Part shown: in pieces, positions 53,149 to 64,000 of the stretch
Numbering within the stretch: position 1 is the first letter of the stretch
Layout of the letters: each line of letters begins with the position of its first letter
Source of the DNA: Tissierellia bacterium
GTDB taxonomy: Bacteria; Bacillota; Clostridia; Tissierellales; Peptoniphilaceae
Reading direction: 5' to 3'
Length of the DNA: 64,000 bases
Assembly (NCBI GenBank): GCA_030540635.1
Contig: JAUNVW010000001.1
Location: 81,973-145,972, forward strand
The notes under the pieces: generated by a model
Told to the model about the DNA's origin: nothing
Databases searched by the model: none
What the model saw: the letters and a program-made list of their open reading frames with translations, nothing else
Position numbers and translations under genes: made by a program

Positions 53149-54258
53149 TTAATATTCCATTAAACCATTTTCCAACATCATCTGACGATAGTACTCCTCG
53201 CCTTTCTCCGTTAATTGGAAAATTTTATCTTTTGTAATATAGTTCTCTTTAAGAAGATATTGAATTGTTTTTTCATAGGCAAAATCTTTCATTCTCAAAT
53301 GCCTTTGCATATTATCATCGCCCACTTCTTCTTCAGCATCTTCTTGATTTTGATGGGATTTTATATGGGTAATGATTAATAAACGATTCATGTATCTTCG
53401 TTGCTCCCGTTTATTCACGATGTCCCGTATAAATCCTTCCGGTTCAAATAGTTTTGCGATTAAAAACGTTAAAAGACCAACAAAGGCCACAACTCCGGCA
53501 ATATTTACATTAAAGTGAATGGCGATAAAATAACCGACGGTCGTATTAAATACAGCGATAGCAGCCGATAATAATAATGTCTGAAATAAGTTTTTTGTCA
53601 ACTTAATCGCCGTTGCTGCTGGGGCTACTAGGAAAGATATGACTAAAATACTCCCCACAGCATCAAAGGCCATGACGGCATTTAAACTAATTAATGTCAT
53701 CAAGGAATAATGAATCAAGGGAACGGAAAAACCACTCATGATCGCAAAGGCTTTATCAAAGGTACTTAATTTCAATTCTTTATAAAAAAGTACAATATAA
53801 AGGATATTTAAAGTCAATATAATAATCCCTTGCTTCAAAGCCATCGGCATTTCTATGAGTCCTAGAAAAACTGTCCGATGCAGTGGTGCTAAAATAACTT
53901 CCCCCATAATAACCGAATCCACACATAAATGGACATTACGAAGATATTTACTCAACAAAATAACACCGATTGAAAAAAACAACGGAAAAACAATTCCCAA
54001 TGCCGCATCCTCATGGACACGTTTTGTTTTCATTAGTATTTCAACAGATACCACCGTTAATAGTCCAAAGATTAAAGCTCCGACGAATAACAAAGGAGAA
54101 TCTAGACTTTTTGATATGAGATATCCCAAGACAATCCCCAACAAAATAGAATGGGATATGGCATCGGCCGTCATCGAAAGATCCCTTAAGACAAGAAATA
54201 CGCCAATAATAGAAGTCGAGAGTGCCGTTAAAAGCAAGATTAAATAAACTTCTGTCAT
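53149..54258 (-). CDS. Metal ABC transporter permease fused to a C-terminal winged-helix domain
   Basis: 369 residues. Eight membrane segments of the ABC-3 type (MntC/TroD/ZnuB) fill residues 1-275, followed by about 95 soluble residues (from VNKREQRRYMNR) shaped like a winged helix, with DKIFQLTEKGEEYYRQM as the wing. The fusion resembles extended TroC/MntC permeases of Firmicutes and spirochetes. It starts by ATGA overlap with the preceding permease gene; in-frame sequence upstream to 54393 belongs to that gene in another frame. The metal may be Mn, Zn or Fe. Confidence 0.88.
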   Translation of the reverse strand: MTEVYLILLLTALSTSIIGVFLVLRDLSMTADAISHSILLGIVLGYLISKSLDSPLLFVGALIFGLLTVVSVEILMKTKRVHEDAALGIVFPLFFSIGVILLSKYLRNVHLCVDSVIMGEVILAPLHRTVFLGLIEMPMALKQGIIILTLNILYIVLFYKELKLSTFDKAFAIMSGFSVPLIHYSLMTLISLNAVMAFDAVGSILVISFLVAPAATAIKLTKNLFQTLLLSAAIAVFNTTVGYFIAIHFNVNIAGVVAFVGLLTFLIAKLFEPEGFIRDIVNKREQRRYMNRLLIITHIKSHQNQEDAEEEVGDDNMQRHLRMKDFAYEKTIQYLLKENYITKDKIFQLTEKGEEYYRQMMLENGLMEY

Positions 54259-55133
54259 TTCGCATACCTCCTTCGTCGAATCATCGTTTGTATCACACCA
54301 TTGGTACCAAATACCAAACTGAGTAGCGCAAAAAGACTCATAATAATGACAATAGCCGGTCCTGTCGATATCCCAGAACCCATCGTCGACCATAGGGTAC
54401 CGATAAATGAAGATACCCCCCCAATGATTGTGGCAATGATAATTACATTTTTATACTTATCGGTCCACTGCATTGCTGTTACAGTCGGTGCAATAAGGAT
54501 TGAGGAGATCAATATGGATCCTACAACTTTCAAACCTGCTGCAATGACGGCAATGGTCATCAGTATAATGATAAAATTAATAAAATTACGATTAAATCCA
54601 CTGACCATTAAAAATTCCGGATCAAAAACATATAGTTTTATTTCTTTATAAAACAACAATAGAAGGCAAATAGCAAGGATAGATACCGAAATAATCAATT
54701 TTATATCTTCCCGCGTCATAAATGCTGCTTGACCAAAGATATAATTGGACAAACCGCTTTGGGAAGCACCTTGATACTTGACATTTCCCTGAATATAAGA
54801 TTTTAACGCCATACCCAGGCCAAAAAAACCAGAAAGTACAACGGCTAATGAAGTATCGGATTTCCTTTTTTCCGTATGATCAACTAAAGAAATGATAAAA
54901 TAAGCGATCATACCCGTAGCGACGGCACCAGCTAGTAAAATATAAGGCGATCGCGTACTGAAAATCATAAAGGCCAAAATTATCCCTGGAAAGCCCGAAT
55001 GACCGATGGCATCTCCAATTAAGGACTTCTTATTTAACACCGTTACCGAACCAACCATAGCTCCAGCAATGCCCAGTAAAAAAGTCCCCGTTAATACTAA
55101 AATAAAGATTGAATTACCAAATATTTCTTTCAT
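54255..55133 (-). CDS. Metal ABC transporter permease
   Basis: 292 residues, about eight membrane segments, ABC-3 family (GDAIGHSGFPGI, VVGSILISSILIAPT). It pairs with the second permease, both translationally coupled to the ATPase gene. The lack of a soluble tail distinguishes it from its partner. Confidence 0.9.
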   Translation of the reverse strand: MKEIFGNSIFILVLTGTFLLGIAGAMVGSVTVLNKKSLIGDAIGHSGFPGIILAFMIFSTRSPYILLAGAVATGMIAYFIISLVDHTEKRKSDTSLAVVLSGFFGLGMALKSYIQGNVKYQGASQSGLSNYIFGQAAFMTREDIKLIISVSILAICLLLLFYKEIKLYVFDPEFLMVSGFNRNFINFIIILMTIAVIAAGLKVVGSILISSILIAPTVTAMQWTDKYKNVIIIATIIGGVSSFIGTLWSTMGSGISTGPAIVIIMSLFALLSLVFGTNGVIQTMIRRRRYAK

Positions 55134-55849
55134 TTGATCATCTTCTTTTGATAGGCCTTGTTAATATTTTCTTCAGTAAATATTTCATCCACCGGACCCG
55201 CTGCTACAATTCGTTTATTAATAATTACGACATGATCAAAATATTCTTTTACGGTGTTCAAATCATGATGGACAGCTACAATGGTTTTACCTTGCTCTTG
55301 AAACTCCTTAACCGTATCCATAATGATCCGTTCGGTCACCATATCAACGCCTGCCAATGGTTCATCCATAAAATAAATATTCGCTTCCGAACAAAGGGAA
55401 CGAGCTAAAAACACTCGTTGTCGTTGTCCTCCTGACAATTGGGAAATTTGTCGATCTTTAAAATCAGACATTTCCATTTTTTCCAAGGATTGTTTTGCAA
55501 TTTCTAAATCTTTCTTACCTGGTCGCTTAATCCAACCTAAGTTTTGATATCGTCCCATAGTTACAACATCAATGACCGTTGTTGGAAAATCCCAATTCAC
55601 CGAAGCTGATTGAGGAATATAGGCAATGTCTTTACGCGCTTCTATATTATTTTTCCCCTGGATTTTTACAAAACCTGAAACTGGCTTCATTAAACCGAGA
55701 ATCCCCTTCATCAATGTTGATTTACCGGCGCCATTGGGACCAATAATCGCCGTACGACTATTGGCCACAATATCAAGATCAACATCCCAAAGTACCGGTT
55801 TGTCACTATAGGATAAAGTGAGATCTTCCACCTGAATAATGGAATTCAT
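55130..55849 (-). CDS. Metal ABC transporter ATPase
   Basis: 239 residues. Walker A GPNGAGKST, Q-loop PQSA, signature LSGGQRQRVFLAR, Walker B YFMDEPLAGVD and the switch His in AVHHD are intact. It energises the two-permease importer. Confidence 0.94.
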   Translation of the reverse strand: MNSIIQVEDLTLSYSDKPVLWDVDLDIVANSRTAIIGPNGAGKSTLMKGILGLMKPVSGFVKIQGKNNIEARKDIAYIPQSASVNWDFPTTVIDVVTMGRYQNLGWIKRPGKKDLEIAKQSLEKMEMSDFKDRQISQLSGGQRQRVFLARSLCSEANIYFMDEPLAGVDMVTERIIMDTVKEFQEQGKTIVAVHHDLNTVKEYFDHVVIINKRIVAAGPVDEIFTEENINKAYQKKMIK

Positions 55850-55871
55850 AACACCACTCTCCTTTTTCTAA

Positions 55872-56822
55872 TTATTTTAAATTTTCGACAATTAAATCTG
55901 TATTATGTTTATACATATCAATATAAGTATCCCCTGACTTACCTTCCGGCGCTAATGAGTCACTAAATAATTCTTGATCATCGCCAGAAACAACTTTCAC
56001 CTCAAAGCCTTTTTTTGCCGCTGCTTCTTTCAGGGACTCCATTCTTTTTGGATCCGTCGTCGATTCAGCAAAGATTGCCTTCACTTGATGATCGACGATG
56101 AAATTTACCGTATTGTCCATTTCACTAACAGCAACTTCTGCATCGGTACTTACGCCCTGGGGAGCGATAACCGGCATATCATATCTTCTTGAAAAATAAT
56201 TAAAGGCATCGTGGGGAGTAATTAAATATCGATTTTCATCGGGGATTTTTGCTAATTCTTCTCGATTATATTTGTCCAGTTCATCGAGCTCTTGCAAATA
56301 ATTTTCCGTATTTTCTTGATACATTTCTTTATTTTCCGGTAATAATTTTTGCAATTCCTCCGAAGCTACATCAACGGCCTTCTTATATAAATCAATATCA
56401 AACCAAAAATGAGGATCATCAATAATTTCCCCATCTTGATCAAATTCCCCAATATCACTTTCATCAAAATTCTTTGCGACAGCAACTCCTCGATCTTCCA
56501 GTAAATCAACCATTTTACCTTCGAAATGTAAACCGTGATAAAGGATCAAATCTCCCTTAGATAATTTATCAAGATCTTCTGGCTTTGCCACATACAAATG
56601 GGGATCTTCACCGGCGGGAATAATCATCTCTCGAGCAACCGTATCCCCTGCGATTTGATAAACCATATCATTTAAGAAAGACGTCGTCACCGTTACAACG
56701 GGTTTGTCGCTACTTTCTACTTCTTGGTCTTTATTTAAATCTTGTGTGCTACAACCAACGGCGATCACCGCGATTAGTATAAGTACTAAGGTTATAAACT
56801 GATTTTTTTTGTGTAATTTCAT
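55872..56822 (-). CDS. Metal-binding lipoprotein of the importer (TroA/MntA/ZnuA type)
   Basis: 316 residues. The signal peptide ends in AVGC (lipobox, Cys24). Cluster A-I fold ligands: H in GEDPHLY, H in YHGLHFEG, H in DPHFWFD, H in TPHDAFNYF and the acidic D near the C-terminus (VSGDDQEL). This is the metal set of Mn/Zn/Fe importers; there is no His-rich loop, which would be expected for ZnuA. It is first in the operon. Confidence 0.92.
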   Translation of the reverse strand: MKLHKKNQFITLVLILIAVIAVGCSTQDLNKDQEVESSDKPVVTVTTSFLNDMVYQIAGDTVAREMIIPAGEDPHLYVAKPEDLDKLSKGDLILYHGLHFEGKMVDLLEDRGVAVAKNFDESDIGEFDQDGEIIDDPHFWFDIDLYKKAVDVASEELQKLLPENKEMYQENTENYLQELDELDKYNREELAKIPDENRYLITPHDAFNYFSRRYDMPVIAPQGVSTDAEVAVSEMDNTVNFIVDHQVKAIFAESTTDPKRMESLKEAAAKKGFEVKVVSGDDQELFSDSLAPEGKSGDTYIDMYKHNTDLIVENLK

Positions 56823-56889: not shown

Positions 56890-56918
56890 ATTATATCATA
56901 ATTGATAATCATTATCAA
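56890..56918 (-). promoter_or_regulatory. Importer promoter with perfect Fur-family operator
   Basis: TTGATA at 56913-56918 and TATAAT at 56890-56895 (minus strand) are separated by 17 bases. Plus-strand 56902-56918, TTGATAAT-C-ATTATCAA, is a perfect palindrome and contains the exact Bacillus 7-1-7 box TGATAATNATTATCA recognised by Fur, Zur or PerR. It overlaps the -35 and spacer, so repression by metal-loaded repressor is expected. Confidence 0.85.
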
Positions 56919-57167
56919 GAGCTTTATCTACCTTTGCCCTATTTTTATAATTATATCATATTCATAATCGGTCGGCGGTCAAGATCATTTTCATCGATTA
57001 TTGAAATTTTAATTCCATATTATTTAAAACTTTTTTAAAAATCAATGAACAATTTAAAAAATACAAAAACCATCCTTGAAAAATAAATTTTACTTAAAAT
57101 AGACCTCAAGGATAATATCATCAAGGATGACCATTTCTATTACTTTAAACCGCAAACCAAAATATAC
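56919..57167. other. AT-rich intergenic stretch without a gene
   Basis: Between the importer promoter and the tRNA-Lys terminator. The only structure seen is CATCCTTGA at 57071-57079, which can pair with either TCAAGGAT at 57106-57113 or TCAAGGATG at 57121-57129. No reading frame with a ribosome site was seen. Confidence 0.5.
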
Positions 57168-57201: not shown

Positions 57202-57277
57202 TGGTGCGCCTTCAGGGGCTCGAACCCTGGGCCTATTGATTAAGAGTCAACCGCTCTGCCAACTGAGCTAAAGGCGC
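57202..57277 (-). tRNA. tRNA-Lys (anticodon CTT)
   Basis: 76 bases with an encoded CCA. The acceptor stem GCGCCTT with AAGGCGC, D-arm AGCTCAGTTGGCAGAGCG, anticodon loop CTCTTAA and T-loop GGTTCGAGCC are intact. It reads AAG. Confidence 0.97.
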
Positions 57278-57322: not shown

Positions 57323-57649
57323 CTATTCCAATTCATGGATAACTGCAGTATTCGTCGATCCTAGAAATATATTATATTTAAAACCCGTATCCGCATCAAT
57401 ATATTCAATCATATTATTATTACTATCATAAGTAAAATCCATTTTAGCTTTATATCGCAAAATTTCTTCTCCATCGATATTGTAAATAATAATCACCCGA
57501 TTTAATCCTAAATTTGCTCCGGATTTAAGATTCTTTTTCCAGCGCATAATGCCTGAACGATTAAAATAAAAAATAATCGAGAATAAAAGGATCAACACCA
57601 AAATTAAAGATATTATCCCTTTTTTTTTATAGATCGGTTCATATCTCAC
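57323..57649 (-). CDS. Unrecognised small membrane protein
   Basis: 108 residues with a basic N-terminus and one membrane segment (about 12-30), then a beta-like extracytoplasmic tail (IYNIDGEEILRYKAKMDF). No family is recognised. It overlaps the preceding YcxB-like gene by 11 bases, so it belongs to the same transcript as the two-component genes. It ends shortly before tRNA-Lys. Confidence 0.7.
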   Translation of the reverse strand: MRYEPIYKKKGIISLILVLILLFSIIFYFNRSGIMRWKKNLKSGANLGLNRVIIIYNIDGEEILRYKAKMDFTYDSNNNMIEYIDADTGFKYNIFLGSTNTAVIHELE

Positions 57650-58121
57650 CTCTATTTTTCTTCATATATGGATTCAAAATCTCTTCCAAATCTTCTTTTT
57701 CATGTACTGCAAATATCCGTAATGGAATAAAAATGAAGGAACGATCTTTTTTAAAAAATAAAAATTCACGATCCATTGTAATTTCATCGAAATCTCCATA
57801 TCGGTATTCCGATTCACCATTCATATTCATAACAGATATTCTTTCTTTACCGAAATAAATATCGTAATCTTCTTGATAATAGCTGGTATTTTTAAGAGTT
57901 TTTTTAGGTAATAACCATAATTGATATACAAGACCGATTATTCCCAATAGGGAAATTATCCGTACTAAAGTTGCTATTAATTTATTTGGAACGAAAAAAG
58001 AGGCGATAAAAATCAAGGGAAAGATAATAAAATCCACTTTTCCAATGGCACCAGATAAACCAATGGCTTTTCTCATTCCTCGCCGAAATTCTTCCGGTGT
58101 ATATATAAATGTTTTATTCAA
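57639..58121 (-). CDS. YcxB-like membrane protein
   Basis: 160 residues. The probable start is TTG 58121 (AGGAGTAGGAA upstream), because the in-frame ATG at 58214 lies 85 bases inside the preceding gene. Two central membrane segments (about 32-75) are followed by a YcxB-type domain (YQEDYDIYFGKERI, FFKKDRSFIFIPLRIF). The family's function is unknown. It overlaps the next gene. Confidence 0.7.
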   Translation of the reverse strand: MNKTFIYTPEEFRRGMRKAIGLSGAIGKVDFIIFPLIFIASFFVPNKLIATLVRIISLLGIIGLVYQLWLLPKKTLKNTSYYQEDYDIYFGKERISVMNMNGESEYRYGDFDEITMDREFLFFKKDRSFIFIPLRIFAVHEKEDLEEILNPYMKKNRGEI

Positions 58122-58129
58122 ATTAATTC

Positions 58130-59614
58130 CTACTCCTGTTGATATTGTACTGGTAAACGCTCCGTTTTTTGGAAGCTTTTCTCCCATTTTTCTGAATACG
58201 TCCCCATAGCCCATTCTGCCATGATAATCGAATCTTTTTCTGAAATGGGAATGGTGGCCAACAAATCGTCATTATGAACTAAATCATAAATTTTTAATTC
58301 ATCAATATCTTGAACAATCAAAATACGACCATCTGGCGAAGAAATGGCATCCAGTGCCCGAGGTGCTAAATTTTTTACATTTGTCCATCGTATCGGTAAA
58401 TCTGGCCAATTGGCTATTTCTATATTCGGCACAATATTGATTTCTATATTTCGATGTATGACATCTTCTTCTTTTTCATCATTCATTTTAATACTTGTTA
58501 AAAATTTCCATTTGCCATTATTACGTTCTAGACCTATATTGCGTTCTGTGTTTTCATTAAGGATATGCTCCATATCAACTTCCGATCCTGAAAAAGATTC
58601 TTCAATATTTCGCACAATTTGCTCTTCTAAAACTTGTAGACCATCATCCCCCGCAATTTCTTTAATGGTAACGGGTTTGTTTTCTCGTAAGTGATCGACA
58701 TCGAAAATTCGATAATCTAAAGAATCATCATTGTTTTGAATTTGTAATGCCGTAAAATTTGGTCCAATATAGGCAATTTCTATAGGTAATGTACTTATTA
58801 ATTGATTTTTTGATCGTCCATTTCCTTCAATGAAGGGATCTGCCGAAATAATTTGATGGGCTTTCCTCGGATCCAAATCTTCATCGAAAGAATATTTTAC
58901 TGTCCAAAAGCCATCGGCTCGAGGAAGAAAGATATTCTTTCCTTGATATATGGATAAATGATTCTTTTCATCAATGCGTAATAGATAGGTTCGATAGGAG
59001 ATTTCCCTTGAGGAATCTTCATAATGAACTCGTTTTACCCCAAGTAGAACGGCTAAATCTTTTTCTCGATTTTTATCGGAATATTCCTGGGTTGAATAAT
59101 ATAAATCTTGATAAGATTTTACAATCGCCTTAGGAACTTCTTTGCTTTGTCGATGATATAAGTAAATATATCCGTTATAGACAATTGCTAATTTATCATC
59201 ATTGATTTTAAAGATATCTTGGTAAAAGCGTTGCCCATCGGAAATCGTAACAATGGTGACATTATCTTGATTCAGATAATCGGGCATTTCTACATCATTA
59301 TATTTGTATTTTAAATAAGACGATAGATTTACATATTTCGTTTTAAAGGAAGGCTTTATCGAGAATCGATCTCCTTGAGCCACGAGTTGATCGGAGATAT
59401 ATAGCTTTTTTTCTTCGATGCTATCTCCGACATTCTCCCCTAAGGATTGATAGGATTCCATCTCCCAAATTCCTTGGAGAGGAAGGGCCAAATTACGAGG
59501 CGGAATATTTTTATCGACAATATTTTCATCCCCCTTTTGCGTAAACATAATGACGGTAACAATGGATAGGATCATTACTAGAATTCCTACAATGATTCGG
59601 TTTTTATACTTCAT
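58130..59614 (-). CDS. Unrecognised anchored extracytoplasmic protein downstream of a histidine kinase
   Basis: 494 residues from ATG 59614 behind AGGTGA; it starts 11 bases inside the kinase gene. One N-terminal membrane segment (about 8-24) is followed by a large beta-rich extracytoplasmic part. There is no lipobox. The segment with NLAPRALDAISSPDGRILIVQD looks like a beta-propeller blade. Position and topology recall YycH/YycI regulators of WalK, but no real sequence match was seen. Confidence 0.7.
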   Translation of the reverse strand: MKYKNRIIVGILVMILSIVTVIMFTQKGDENIVDKNIPPRNLALPLQGIWEMESYQSLGENVGDSIEEKKLYISDQLVAQGDRFSIKPSFKTKYVNLSSYLKYKYNDVEMPDYLNQDNVTIVTISDGQRFYQDIFKINDDKLAIVYNGYIYLYHRQSKEVPKAIVKSYQDLYYSTQEYSDKNREKDLAVLLGVKRVHYEDSSREISYRTYLLRIDEKNHLSIYQGKNIFLPRADGFWTVKYSFDEDLDPRKAHQIISADPFIEGNGRSKNQLISTLPIEIAYIGPNFTALQIQNNDDSLDYRIFDVDHLRENKPVTIKEIAGDDGLQVLEEQIVRNIEESFSGSEVDMEHILNENTERNIGLERNNGKWKFLTSIKMNDEKEEDVIHRNIEINIVPNIEIANWPDLPIRWTNVKNLAPRALDAISSPDGRILIVQDIDELKIYDLVHNDDLLATIPISEKDSIIMAEWAMGTYSEKWEKSFQKTERLPVQYQQE

Positions 59615-61007
59615 CGATTTCACCTACCGGTATCATGACCGTTACTTTTGTTCCTTCGTCTACCTTCGATGTGATTTTCATCTTTCCATTATGAAGTTTT
59701 ATGATTTCTTCACATATTGAAAGACCTAAACCCGTATGGGAGCGGGAACTACTTCCTTTATAAAACTTATCGGTGACATTGTCAATTTCTTCCTTTGGAA
59801 TTCCAATACCGGTATCGATAACATCGATCAGTATATGCTCCTCTTTTTTTTCTAAATTAACCATGACTGTCCCGCCTTTATTCGTAAATTTTATGCCATT
59901 ATCGACGAGATTTATTAAAACTTGTCGCATCCTCGATTCATCCGCCAAAATAATAATATGTTCTGGATCATAATTGGCGACAAGATCAATTCCGCTGGAT
60001 TTACCTCGGGGAGTTAATTGTTTTACTATATCAATGACTATTTGGGTAATGTCAATTTGATTCCTTTCCATGGTAATTCTACCGGAAGTAAATCGAGAAA
60101 AATCCAATAATTCTTCCACCATATCGGATAATCGAGTACATTCGCCTTCAATAATTTTCAAACCCTCTTTAACCATTTGTGTATCTTCTGGATCATATTC
60201 CAGCGTTTGGGCCCATCCATTGATGGAGGTTAAAGGTGTTCTTAATTCATGGGATACAGAGGATATAAAGTCATTTTTTAATTGTTCTTTTTCCTTGATA
60301 TTGTCTGTCATTAAATTAAGGGTATGTCCTAATTTCCCGATTTCGTCATAATTATTTTCCTTAGCCCTCACCGACAATTGCCCATCGGATAGTTTCTCCG
60401 CGACATCAATTAGTTCATTAATGGGTTTTACCACAGAGTTTGCCATGAGTACGGAGATTAATCCGGTAATGATAATGGCGGTAAAACCGAAGGCGAAAAA
60501 TGTTACATAGCGATGGAAGATTAGATATTCAACTTCTTCTAAAGATGTTGTCAATCGAATGATTCCCACTTGTTCCCCTCGAGAAAATAAGGGTCTTGTA
60601 ATGGACATGACACGGTGATCAGTATGGAGTGGTTGTCCAACATAGGACCCATCGGTGCCATCTTTCGCCTTTTCCACATCTGGTGTTGTTAACTGCTTGC
60701 CAATTTCTGGAGATGCTATGGAATCATATAATACAAGGCCGGAATTATCGAGGATTTGTACTTGATTTTCCGCTTGTCGATAGAATTGATCTTTCTCTTG
60801 AATAATCACATCCTCCAAACGATAATCGGCTAAATAAGTAGAATAAATATCCGCTGAATAACGGATTTGATTTTCCATAATGCCAGCAATGGAGGAATAA
60901 TAATAGTATTTTACCGAATATAGGGAATAGGCCTCAAAGATAACAATTGTACACAAGGAAAGAAAAAGGAAATATCCAACAATTTTCTCTTTAATCGTAC
61001 GATTCAA
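59604..61007 (-). CDS. Sensor histidine kinase
   Basis: 467 residues. Two membrane segments (about 10-30 and 167-189) enclose an extracytoplasmic sensor domain of about 135 residues; then HAMP (190-245), HisKA with His253 in SHELRTP, and an HATPase domain with N-box NLVDNGIKF, DTGIGIPKEE and GLGLSICEEI. It is 8 bases after the response regulator gene. The architecture is WalK-like, but no PAS domain is present. Confidence 0.94.
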   Translation of the reverse strand: MNRTIKEKIVGYFLFLSLCTIVIFEAYSLYSVKYYYYSSIAGIMENQIRYSADIYSTYLADYRLEDVIIQEKDQFYRQAENQVQILDNSGLVLYDSIASPEIGKQLTTPDVEKAKDGTDGSYVGQPLHTDHRVMSITRPLFSRGEQVGIIRLTTSLEEVEYLIFHRYVTFFAFGFTAIIITGLISVLMANSVVKPINELIDVAEKLSDGQLSVRAKENNYDEIGKLGHTLNLMTDNIKEKEQLKNDFISSVSHELRTPLTSINGWAQTLEYDPEDTQMVKEGLKIIEGECTRLSDMVEELLDFSRFTSGRITMERNQIDITQIVIDIVKQLTPRGKSSGIDLVANYDPEHIIILADESRMRQVLINLVDNGIKFTNKGGTVMVNLEKKEEHILIDVIDTGIGIPKEEIDNVTDKFYKGSSSRSHTGLGLSICEEIIKLHNGKMKITSKVDEGTKVTVMIPVGEIDEV

Positions 61008-61015
61008 GGGATCAC

Positions 61016-61705
61016 CTATTCTTTATACCAGCGATATCCTGTTCCCCATACCGTTTCAATGTATTTGGGCTTACTCGGATCATCTTCAATTTTCGCACGT
61101 AAACGCCGAATATTAACATCGACAATTTTATCGGCTCCTTCGTATCCTTCGCCCCAGTTTAAATCCAATAATTCAGATCTAGTAAAAGCCTTCCCTGGAT
61201 TTTTCATAAAGAGGGATGCCATGGAAAGCTCTGTCGGCGTCAATACGATTTCTTCCCCATTTTTATAAAAAGTTCTCGAGTATAAATCAATTTTAAACGG
61301 TGGATTATCGATTATATTTGAATCCTTACCATCATCTTTATCTAAACGTCGGATTAGGGACTTAATACGAAGTGCCAATTCCCGGGGATTAAAAGGCTTC
61401 GATAGATAATCATCGGCTCCCCGTTCCAATCCCGCTATTTTATCTTCTTCTTGAGTTTTTGCCGTCAACATAATAATGCCAATTTCCGGTACTTTTTCCC
61501 GTAGAATTGAACAAACTTCATAGCCATCAATACCCGGGAGCATAATATCTAAAATTGCCACATCTGGGTGATCACGCAAGGCTATCTCCACTCCTAATTC
61601 CCCGGTTTCTGCTTCTAGAACTTCAAATCCTTCACGTTCTAGATTAATCCTTGTGAATTTTCGAATATTTTCTTCATCTTCTACCAGTAATATCCTATTT
61701 TGCAT
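61016..61705 (-). CDS. OmpR-family response regulator
   Basis: 229 residues from ATG 61705 behind AGGAG. The receiver domain has the acidic pair ED (10-11), phospho-acceptor Asp53 and Lys near 102. The C-terminal OmpR winged helix ends in VWGTGYRWYKE. It is the partner of the downstream kinase; the gene target set is unknown. Confidence 0.95.
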   Translation of the reverse strand: MQNRILLVEDEENIRKFTRINLEREGFEVLEAETGELGVEIALRDHPDVAILDIMLPGIDGYEVCSILREKVPEIGIIMLTAKTQEEDKIAGLERGADDYLSKPFNPRELALRIKSLIRRLDKDDGKDSNIIDNPPFKIDLYSRTFYKNGEEIVLTPTELSMASLFMKNPGKAFTRSELLDLNWGEGYEGADKIVDVNIRRLRAKIEDDPSKPKYIETVWGTGYRWYKE

Positions 61706-61743: not shown

Positions 61744-64000
61744 CTACTCTAATCCTCGGACAAATGCAATGAAATCGCCGATTTCACCTTCAATCCATTC
61801 TCGATCATAATCCAATGAATAAACCCTTCGATTTCGAAGATTTTGAATCTCCAATTCTATTTTTCTCCCCGGATAAATTTGATCCATGGCAAAGCCGTAA
61901 AAATTTAATTGAGGAGCATAGATTTTTTTTATTTCTTCACCAATGGAGGATAGTTTGAAATCAATAATTTTTATTTTTTGTCCATCGATGATTAAACGAT
62001 CGATGATTCCATTTAGATATTCTCCACAATAATGTAAATGAAAATCCACCTCTTTTTCTCCGATTTCAGGATTGGGATTGCAAAAAATATAATTTTTGAA
62101 ATACATTTCCAAAGGTGAAATATCCCGGGATGATAATTGAAATTTCTCCTTCAATTTATCGATGGTTTTTCCATAATCTCCATCATAAATTTCTGCGAAC
62201 CCATGGACAATTGTTCCGTCCATAGATTTTATATCTTTTTTTTGAATCTCTTCCCGAGATCGCTGTTTTTTAATCCAGTCTAGGGCATCCGGTTCCTCTA
62301 AATAATCCATAAGCATCGATGCATTTAAGCGATCCATAATTTTCGTTTCCTTTTTTTTGTTTGTAATCACAAATTTTTCAATATCATGGACGGATCGTCT
62401 AGGGATATCGATGGTATAATCATCGACTTGTGGACGGGTAATTTCACCCTCATCATATAATTCCATGATTTTTTTATAGGAGTTTTTTAGGAATCCAGAC
62501 TTCTGACCGCCAATTCCTAAGGCGCAATTTGTTTTTGCCCGCGTCATAGCCACATAATAGAGATTATCGTTTTGTAAATTCTCTTCCTCCTTTTGACACT
62601 GAATAATCTCTTCATAAAGGGGATGATGGGCCATGGTTTTCATGGAAAATCCATAATTTTTATGATGGACAAATCGAGATGAACGGAAGCGATTCGTCTT
62701 TCCTAATCGAGGAATTAATACTGAATCAATGGAAAGTCCCTTGGATTTATGAATAGTCATCAATCGTACAATATTGGAATTTTCATCTTCCACCTGTAAT
62801 TGGGGATAATCTTTCCCTAAGGCCCTGACATAATGGTAAAAATCGTAAAGGGACCAGGACATCTCATCACCGTATAAAGCCAATTGTAATAATTGATATA
62901 AGTTTCCTTGATTTTGAATATCCTCCTTGAGATAATGATAATATTCGAAATATTTAAAATCTACCAGGATTTGATAAATACCACGAAATAAAGAATCATC
63001 CAATATTTCAACATAACGCTTCGTTATAATGTCTATATCTTTAATTCCAAGGTCTTTTTCTTGAGAATAACGATAAAAATCCGATGGCGAATAGCCATAA
63101 AACAGACCACCGGCAATTCCAAAGAGAGATTCATCATCTCGATAGAGTAAATACGATAAAAATGCGAGGATCTCTCGTATGGGTTCTTGATATAAAAACT
63201 CTTTTGAACCAAGGATATAAAAAGGTATCCCCTTTTGTTTCAAATATTCACCGTGGATTTTAAAAGAATTTGAAGCCCGTACTAAATAGGAAAAATCTTT
63301 AAATTCTTTTCCTTGGTGAGTTTTCCAAGAAATAAATTCGGAGAAAAAACGAGCTTCCTCTTCTTCATCGATATCTTTTCCATCGTTTGTAATATACATA
63401 CCTTGATGTTCATCCTTTGTTACGGCCTTTAATCCATCGTAACGATCCCCCATAATCTCCGAAAACAGGGTATTGATGGGATCCATTAGGTTTTTTGTCG
63501 CCCTAAAATTTGTTTCTAAAAGTAAAACATGTCCATCGCTCTTTTGTATATCTTCCATGGTTTCATAGAATATATTCACCGATGCTCCACGAAAGGCATA
63601 GATCGATTGTTTGGGATCTCCCACGACAAAGAGATTCTTCCGATCTAAAGGCTTTCTTTTCGAACATAATGCATAAAAAATATTTTTTTGAATTTCCGAA
63701 GAATCTTGGTATTCATCGACCATAAGATAACGATACTTCGATTGCAATTCTTTTTTTACCGAATCAATTTGAAGAAGATCATAACATAAGAGTTCCATAT
63801 CGTCATAATCGATGAAGGATCTCGAGGCTTTGTATTCATCAAAACGGTACAGGATATTTTCAAAAATCTTAAAAGTTTTTTCATAAAGAGGAATATTTTC
63901 CCGATCTTTATTAATAAACCAATTCTTAAAGAGATTCATAATCCCTGTCTCCCCTTGAATTGTCTCAATAATATTACTACGACTAGTAACAAAGGCCTCG
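61744..64000 (-). CDS. addA: AddA helicase-nuclease subunit, N-terminus outside window
   Basis: The frame is open to the window edge (752 codons), so the Walker A region is missing. Superfamily-1 helicase motifs (MVDEYQDSSEIQ, GDPKQSIYAFRGA, TIHKSKGLS, VAMTRAK) are followed by a C-terminal nuclease domain of about 250 residues with GIIDRLI and IIDFK, the AddA-type metal motif. With AddB it processes double-strand breaks. It ends 38 bases before the response regulator gene. Confidence 0.93.
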   Translation of the reverse strand, partial: EAFVTSRSNIIETIQGETGIMNLFKNWFINKDRENIPLYEKTFKIFENILYRFDEYKASRSFIDYDDMELLCYDLLQIDSVKKELQSKYRYLMVDEYQDSSEIQKNIFYALCSKRKPLDRKNLFVVGDPKQSIYAFRGASVNIFYETMEDIQKSDGHVLLLETNFRATKNLMDPINTLFSEIMGDRYDGLKAVTKDEHQGMYITNDGKDIDEEEEARFFSEFISWKTHQGKEFKDFSYLVRASNSFKIHGEYLKQKGIPFYILGSKEFLYQEPIREILAFLSYLLYRDDESLFGIAGGLFYGYSPSDFYRYSQEKDLGIKDIDIITKRYVEILDDSLFRGIYQILVDFKYFEYYHYLKEDIQNQGNLYQLLQLALYGDEMSWSLYDFYHYVRALGKDYPQLQVEDENSNIVRLMTIHKSKGLSIDSVLIPRLGKTNRFRSSRFVHHKNYGFSMKTMAHHPLYEEIIQCQKEEENLQNDNLYYVAMTRAKTNCALGIGGQKSGFLKNSYKKIMELYDEGEITRPQVDDYTIDIPRRSVHDIEKFVITNKKKETKIMDRLNASMLMDYLEEPDALDWIKKQRSREEIQKKDIKSMDGTIVHGFAEIYDGDYGKTIDKLKEKFQLSSRDISPLEMYFKNYIFCNPNPEIGEKEVDFHLHYCGEYLNGIIDRLIIDGQKIKIIDFKLSSIGEEIKKIYAPQLNFYGFAMDQIYPGRKIELEIQNLRNRRVYSLDYDREWIEGEIGDFIAFVRGLE

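Follow-up and report, generated by a model that had tools for sequence, protein, structure and literature searches.

The window, by which we mean the whole stretch of 64,000 nucleotides analyzed here from a contig of a Tissierellia bacterium, contains an operon whose conserved core is a three-gene signalling unit: a response regulator (RR), a sensor histidine kinase lacking a PAS domain (HK) and an extracytoplasmic, lipoprotein-type protein of 494 aa, designated P494. Taken as a whole, the data are best explained by a three-component system of the cell envelope, which has probably taken over the Wal role in those lineages where the classical WalRK was lost.

The operon is encoded on the reverse strand. 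Its first gene (61016..61705) specifies an OmpR-family response regulator of 229 aa (Pfam: Response_reg, E-value = 1.7e-29; Trans_reg_C, E-value = 5.2e-26), which the RR tree described below classifies as a WalR of the C. difficile-type lineage. The second gene (59604..61007) encodes HK (467 aa), assigned by its Pfam domains and by the trees to the WalKs of the same lineage. HK exhibits two transmembrane helices around an extracytoplasmic part of about 130 aa, together with HAMP, HisKA and HATPase domains; the Pfam search revealed no PAS domain, in agreement with the earlier note on this sequence. The third gene (58130..59614) encodes P494, an anchored extracytoplasmic accessory protein representing a conserved lipoprotein family found behind HK. 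A YcxB-like two-pass membrane protein (57639..58121, 160 aa from a TTG codon) and a 108-aa one-pass protein (57323..57649) complete the array, which is followed downstream by a tRNA-Lys(CTT) gene (57202..57277) on the same strand. The earlier note had described five tightly packed ORFs ending before this tRNA gene, and all of the frames were recovered, with 8-base gaps (RR/HK and P494/YcxB-like) and 11-base overlaps (HK/P494 and YcxB-like/108-aa gene). The start codons as called are TTG for HK, ATG for P494, TTG for the YcxB-like gene and GTG for the 108-aa gene. Profile searches, proposed in the earlier note for the three proteins behind the kinase, were informative for the YcxB-like protein (PF14317, 28.9 bits for a curated cut-off of 23.3, E-value = 9.8e-7); the 108-aa protein is weakly DUF3139-like, below the cut-off (E-value = 0.0038, 18.2 bits, cut-off 27.3), and P494 gave no match.

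An AddA-like helicase/nuclease gene (61744-63939, reverse strand) ends 38 bases upstream of the RR start, so that the transcript may start further upstream and possibly include the AddA-like gene. Promoter-like sites around the operon are no commoner than in shuffled sequence. The tRNA-Lys gene is preceded by a promoter-like site of its own (57318-57290) and followed by a strong terminator-like hairpin (57197-57171). Where the 108-aa gene begins (57618-57649, reverse strand), a good Shine-Dalgarno sequence accompanies an ATG at 57641 in another frame. The frame from this ATG crosses an A9 run and reaches a stop after 9 codons, and the long 108-aa frame begins at the GTG; either the start codon or the assembled A-run is thus uncertain, and a homopolymer error or a frameshift at this place is possible. 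Elsewhere in the window, a Zn/Mn-type ABC importer (ZnuA-like binding protein, ATPase and two ABC-3 permeases) is encoded at 53149-56822 on the reverse strand. The last of its ABC-3 permease ORFs (414 aa) exhibits a C-terminal extension resembling a winged-helix tail of the DtxR/MntR type, and a palindrome resembling a Fur-family operator (TTGATAATCATTATCAA, ~56899-56920) precedes the ZnuA-like gene.

The gene order RR-HK-P494 is kept in nearly all of the approximately 85 loci that we read in the order and class of the window, far more often than chance would give for RR, HK and P494. At one locus (L059), the RR gene is relocated behind P494. A single-sequence search detected P494 in 66 of 101 genomes and a profile search in 75 of them, including every one of the 61 genomes sampled from the window's family, with one copy each. 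A sample of the class yielded 48 positive genomes out of 293, of which a few of the weakest are signal-peptide matches. The genes ahead of the core vary, encoding a ROK kinase, an RNA pseudouridine synthase or a polysaccharide deacetylase. The deacetylase gene directly precedes RR-HK-P494 in at least 11 loci/genomes (L037, L040, L042, L046, L047, L049, L062, L068, L071, L072 and L090; Pfam E-value of 1e-31 or better). As a separate observation, five loci from one genus of the class (L132, L134-L136 and L145) exhibit a gene of 780-820 aa after P494 in the same direction.

The last two genes of the window operon behave differently from the core. A YcxB-like gene beside P494 was found in one other genome only (L033/L004, 32% identity), and the 108-aa gene had no match in any other P494 locus compared. 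In the earlier note all three proteins behind the kinase were taken to feed signals to it as a complex, and a check of the five-gene order in relatives was proposed; P494 retains its place beside HK by this check, whereas the last two genes do not. The extra proteins might still pass signals to the kinase as a complex. The tight packing, with its short gaps and overlaps, would suit a single membrane complex of all five gene products; given the narrow distribution of the last two genes, and the unrelated genes that other lineages hold at this position (such as a membrane protein of about 100 aa behind P494 in 19 loci, unrelated to the YcxB-like and 108-aa genes of the window), such a complex is very unlikely. 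The best explanation for the YcxB-like and 108-aa genes is that they are late local additions, the former being a lineage-specific passenger or an extra subunit.

A lipobox is present in 53 of the 59 aligned P494 copies (51 by pattern, two by eye). Five copies, namely those of the window, of its nearest relatives (L031 and L032) and of L066/L077, exhibit a hydrophobic helix without cysteine instead, and one further row of the alignment is truncated. To judge from the alignment, P494 is ancestrally a lipoprotein, and the window copy has lost the lipobox cysteine and is anchored by a transmembrane helix. P494 did not match any Pfam or NCBIfam family at E-value<=1, nor did PADLOC return anything, and a P494 profile searched against PDB sequences gave nothing significant (best E-value = 0.022). 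An AlphaFold2 model based on the P494 alignment reached a pLDDT of 87.6, and the C-terminal domain modelled alone a pLDDT of 93.3 with a pTM of 0.91. The model of this domain can be aligned along its entire length with several beta-propellers (amine dehydrogenase, N2O reductase, Kelch and TolB), with Z-scores of at most 6.9 that are below the trust level of the aligner. All fold matches of this domain by Z-score were propeller-like and under 8, and a Foldseek search with it returned nothing significant. In the fold search with the whole model, which mixed the two domains, the N-terminal stretch 43-158 exhibited a weak barrel-type match (5yvf, Z = 6.2, 90 residues). We provisionally describe P494 as a predicted barrel-like N-terminal domain followed by a C-terminal domain that leans toward a propeller. 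Short forms keeping the N-terminal ~170 residues were also observed (L146 and L147; G001, G002, G007-G009, G013, G039, G045, G057 and G060), all of them in genomes that also hold a classical WalK.

In C. difficile, the essential operon walA-walR-walK-truA2 encodes a WalK without PAS domain, and its lipoprotein WalA has been called unique to C. difficile (PMC9210968; PMC10601699). WalR controls envelope genes there, with pgdA among the top targets (PMC9210968). WalRK of this species is treated as "the" WalRK and considered a target for antibiotics, and its phenotypes are the reverse of those seen in Bacillus and Staphylococcus (PMC9210968, PMC10601699). Using a segment of RpoB, we located a named genome of C. 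difficile and searched it with the window HK. The best match is WalK itself (E-value = 1.4e-76, 257.9 bits, 35% identity), aligned over its full length (residues 6-459), while the next match (E-value = 7.4e-38, 130.7 bits) covers the catalytic part only. The matched kinase sits in an operon of a 459-aa lipoprotein, RR, HK and TruA, corresponding to walA-walR-walK-truA. Against HK_WalK, the C. difficile genome has no match spanning the protein, the best (320.7 bits) being read through stop codons.

Phylogenetic analysis agrees with this homology search. In the HK maximum-likelihood tree, the P494-linked and C. difficile-type kinases fall on one side (support 100/99), and the classical WalKs form a group of their own (100/99). 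Constraining the tree to join the C. difficile-type and classical kinases costs 77.6 log-likelihood units (AU test, p = 5.1e-6). The WalKs of S. mutans and L. plantarum, for which solved chains exist, are on the classical side of the main branch (100/100), their exact sister among the other kinases not being fixed. The RR tree likewise unites the P494-linked and C. difficile-type regulators (100/99), and joining the C. difficile type with the classical one is rejected (AU test, p = 1.2e-4). Both trees were built without actinobacterial sequences. The phylogenies show that, by descent of their sequences, the window RR and HK share a lineage with C. difficile WalRK, apart from the classical PAS-containing, YycI-linked WalRK. 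In the RR tree the C. difficile type is enclosed by P494-linked regulators, a nesting that fits an exchange of the lipoprotein in the C. difficile branch. Where the partner differs, the sensor domains exhibit a small excess of divergence (25 vs 29% at 42-46% catalytic identity) among pairs that are non-independent. A homology between P494 and WalA, which carries FG-GAP-like repeats, was considered and is not supported: hhalign aligns the signal peptide only. The lack of detectable homology and the opposite operon ends of the two genes mean that the accessory parts are not demonstrably orthologous. Three loci in a single genome of Tepidibacter thalassicus (L344-L346) each encode a C. difficile-type RR/HK pair: one pair is accompanied by both walA and truA, another has truA beside it and a stop within its kinase frame, and the third lacks both genes.

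The earlier note had likened the gene order to that of walRK-yycHI while pointing to differences in sequence and size, and the separate clades and the lack of any YycH/YycI match for P494 in Pfam/NCBIfam bear out that the operon is not walRK-yycHI itself. One could still regard it as a strongly diverged classical WalRK-YycHI, with P494 as a diverged YycH. The broad layout of RR, HK and a large anchored protein is the same, and the catalytic half of HK finds its best family score against HK_WalK (254.7 bits). That score misses the cut-off of 725, with only residues 241-461 in the best aligned stretch, and the window RR obtains 192.5 bits against the YycF equivalog with its cut-off of 340. The classical WalKs of clostridia also score less than 725, yet they match HK_WalK over the full length at 430-574 bits, and their loci carry PAS, YycI and MBL genes (domains checked at example loci). 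Moreover, several genomes hold such a PAS/YycI classical WalRK elsewhere as well: it was found at a separate locus in G065, G074, G096, G122, Tepidibacter thalassicus, Acetoanaerobium pronyense and Sedimentibacter. It is accompanied by a P494 operon in the first four, and by C. difficile-type pairs in T. thalassicus and A. pronyense. Together with the missing PAS domain and the AU rejection, this coexistence makes a diverged WalRK-YycHI highly improbable. A different descent is suggested by MtrAB-LpqB of Actinobacteria, which exhibits the order RR-HK-lipoprotein. The operon would then be its clostridial ortholog, with P494 in the place of the propeller lipoprotein. HK lacks a PAS domain, the P494 C-terminal model is propeller-like, MtrA and MtrB are among the better family scores, and MtrA is the second-best PDB match of RR. 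Both scores are nevertheless under their cut-offs (MtrA, 200 of 300 bits; MtrB, 195.6 of 450), and P494 has no Pfam match at all, the LpqB domains included. We consider this orthology unlikely.

The distribution of the classical system bears on the function of the P494 operon. Calling classical WalK at >=425 bits in the 61 genomes of the window's family, we found it in 30 and missed it in 31. All 31 genomes lacking classical WalK keep an essentially complete P494 (one copy is split by a stop and one lies at a contig edge), but among the 30 genomes with classical WalK, 10 have P494 shortened to ~170 aa (Fisher p = 3e-4, the genomes representing about seven genera and hence fewer independent events). 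This pattern points to a stronger constraint on the P494 system in genomes where it is alone. Elsewhere in the order, four genomes (G061, G072, G081 and G098) hold P494 without a clear classical WalK, and two (G075 and G088) have neither, which counts against our preferred reading. The assembly containing the window is 1.3 Mb and 69% complete, which leaves the absence of classical WalK from this genome unproven. P494, RR and HK could alternatively form a three-component sensor for another stimulus, such as an antimicrobial peptide, a metal or a nutrient, with the kinship to C. difficile WalRK reflecting old common descent. The accessory protein does differ from WalA, and the classical WalK kept in about half of the family genomes may cover the Wal role there. 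Weighed against the universal presence of P494 in the sampled family, its integrity wherever classical WalK is missing, the deacetylase neighbors and the essential, envelope-directed C. difficile relative (PMC9210968), another stimulus seems somewhat unlikely.

The three-component envelope system thus remains our preferred reading. An envelope role is suggested by the essential envelope function of the C. difficile relative, by pgdA among its top targets (PMC9210968) and by the deacetylase genes beside the P494 operon. P494 would lie on the outer face of the membrane, adjoining the HK sensor domain, and may report the state of the cell wall, either through an envelope ligand that it binds or through a restraint on HK. 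P494 likely tunes the kinase in envelope/peptidoglycan control, and RR, like its C. difficile counterpart, would adjust genes for peptidoglycan and envelope. Where classical WalRK has been lost, possibly also in the window genome, the P494-type system probably carries the essential Wal role.

A broader reading, to which we give about an even chance, is that Clostridia hold two old and separate Wal-type systems, one being the classical WalRK-YycHI with its PAS domain and the other an RR-HK-lipoprotein system whose kinase has no PAS. The "WalRK" of C. difficile would be the second of these rather than the ortholog of the Bacillus system, left as the sole essential one after loss of the first; P494 would have been exchanged for WalA in Peptostreptococcaceae, and the window genome would represent a further lineage that has the second system only. 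If true, this would account for the inverted C. difficile phenotypes, and species with both systems would be natural test cases. The label "WalRK" in C. difficile is worth rechecking with a denser tree, and so would be inferences drawn from Bacilli if its system is a different, coexisting lineage. The earlier note had pointed to an undescribed system. RR and HK fall within the lineage of C. difficile WalRK and are to that extent not new, but we did not find a P494-type operon described in the literature searched. Within that literature, the novel elements are P494 as a conserved partner family and its link to C. difficile-type WalRK, as well as the evidence that the C. difficile-type lineage differs from and coexists with classical WalRK. 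P494 would add a new family of kinase partners; every genome sampled from the window's family carries it, as does roughly one in six of the class sample.

Lipoproteins have been described before as partners of two-component systems, for instance in MtrAB-LpqB, whose lipoprotein LpqB contains a propeller (PMC13068155). This system resembles the window operon in gene order, and its propeller would have a counterpart in P494 if the lean of the C-terminal domain toward that fold holds; the differences are scores below the MtrA/MtrB cut-offs and the LpqB domains, which were not found in P494. The propeller lipoprotein AOT13_14265 of Parageobacillus has also been proposed as the third component of a two-component system (PMC13068155), a part comparable with that suggested here for P494. 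The classical walRK-yycHI(J) operon is similar in that RR and HK are followed by envelope accessory proteins; its intracellular PAS domain, full-length HK_WalK match, YycI/MBL accessories and separate clade all set it apart from the window system. In C. difficile, the FG-GAP-repeat lipoprotein WalA is encoded first and truA last, whereas the window operon, without truA, encodes P494, unrelated to WalA by sequence, third. Common to walA-walR-walK-truA2 and the window operon are the PAS-less HK, an OmpR-type RR of the same lineage and a lipoprotein gene within the operon.
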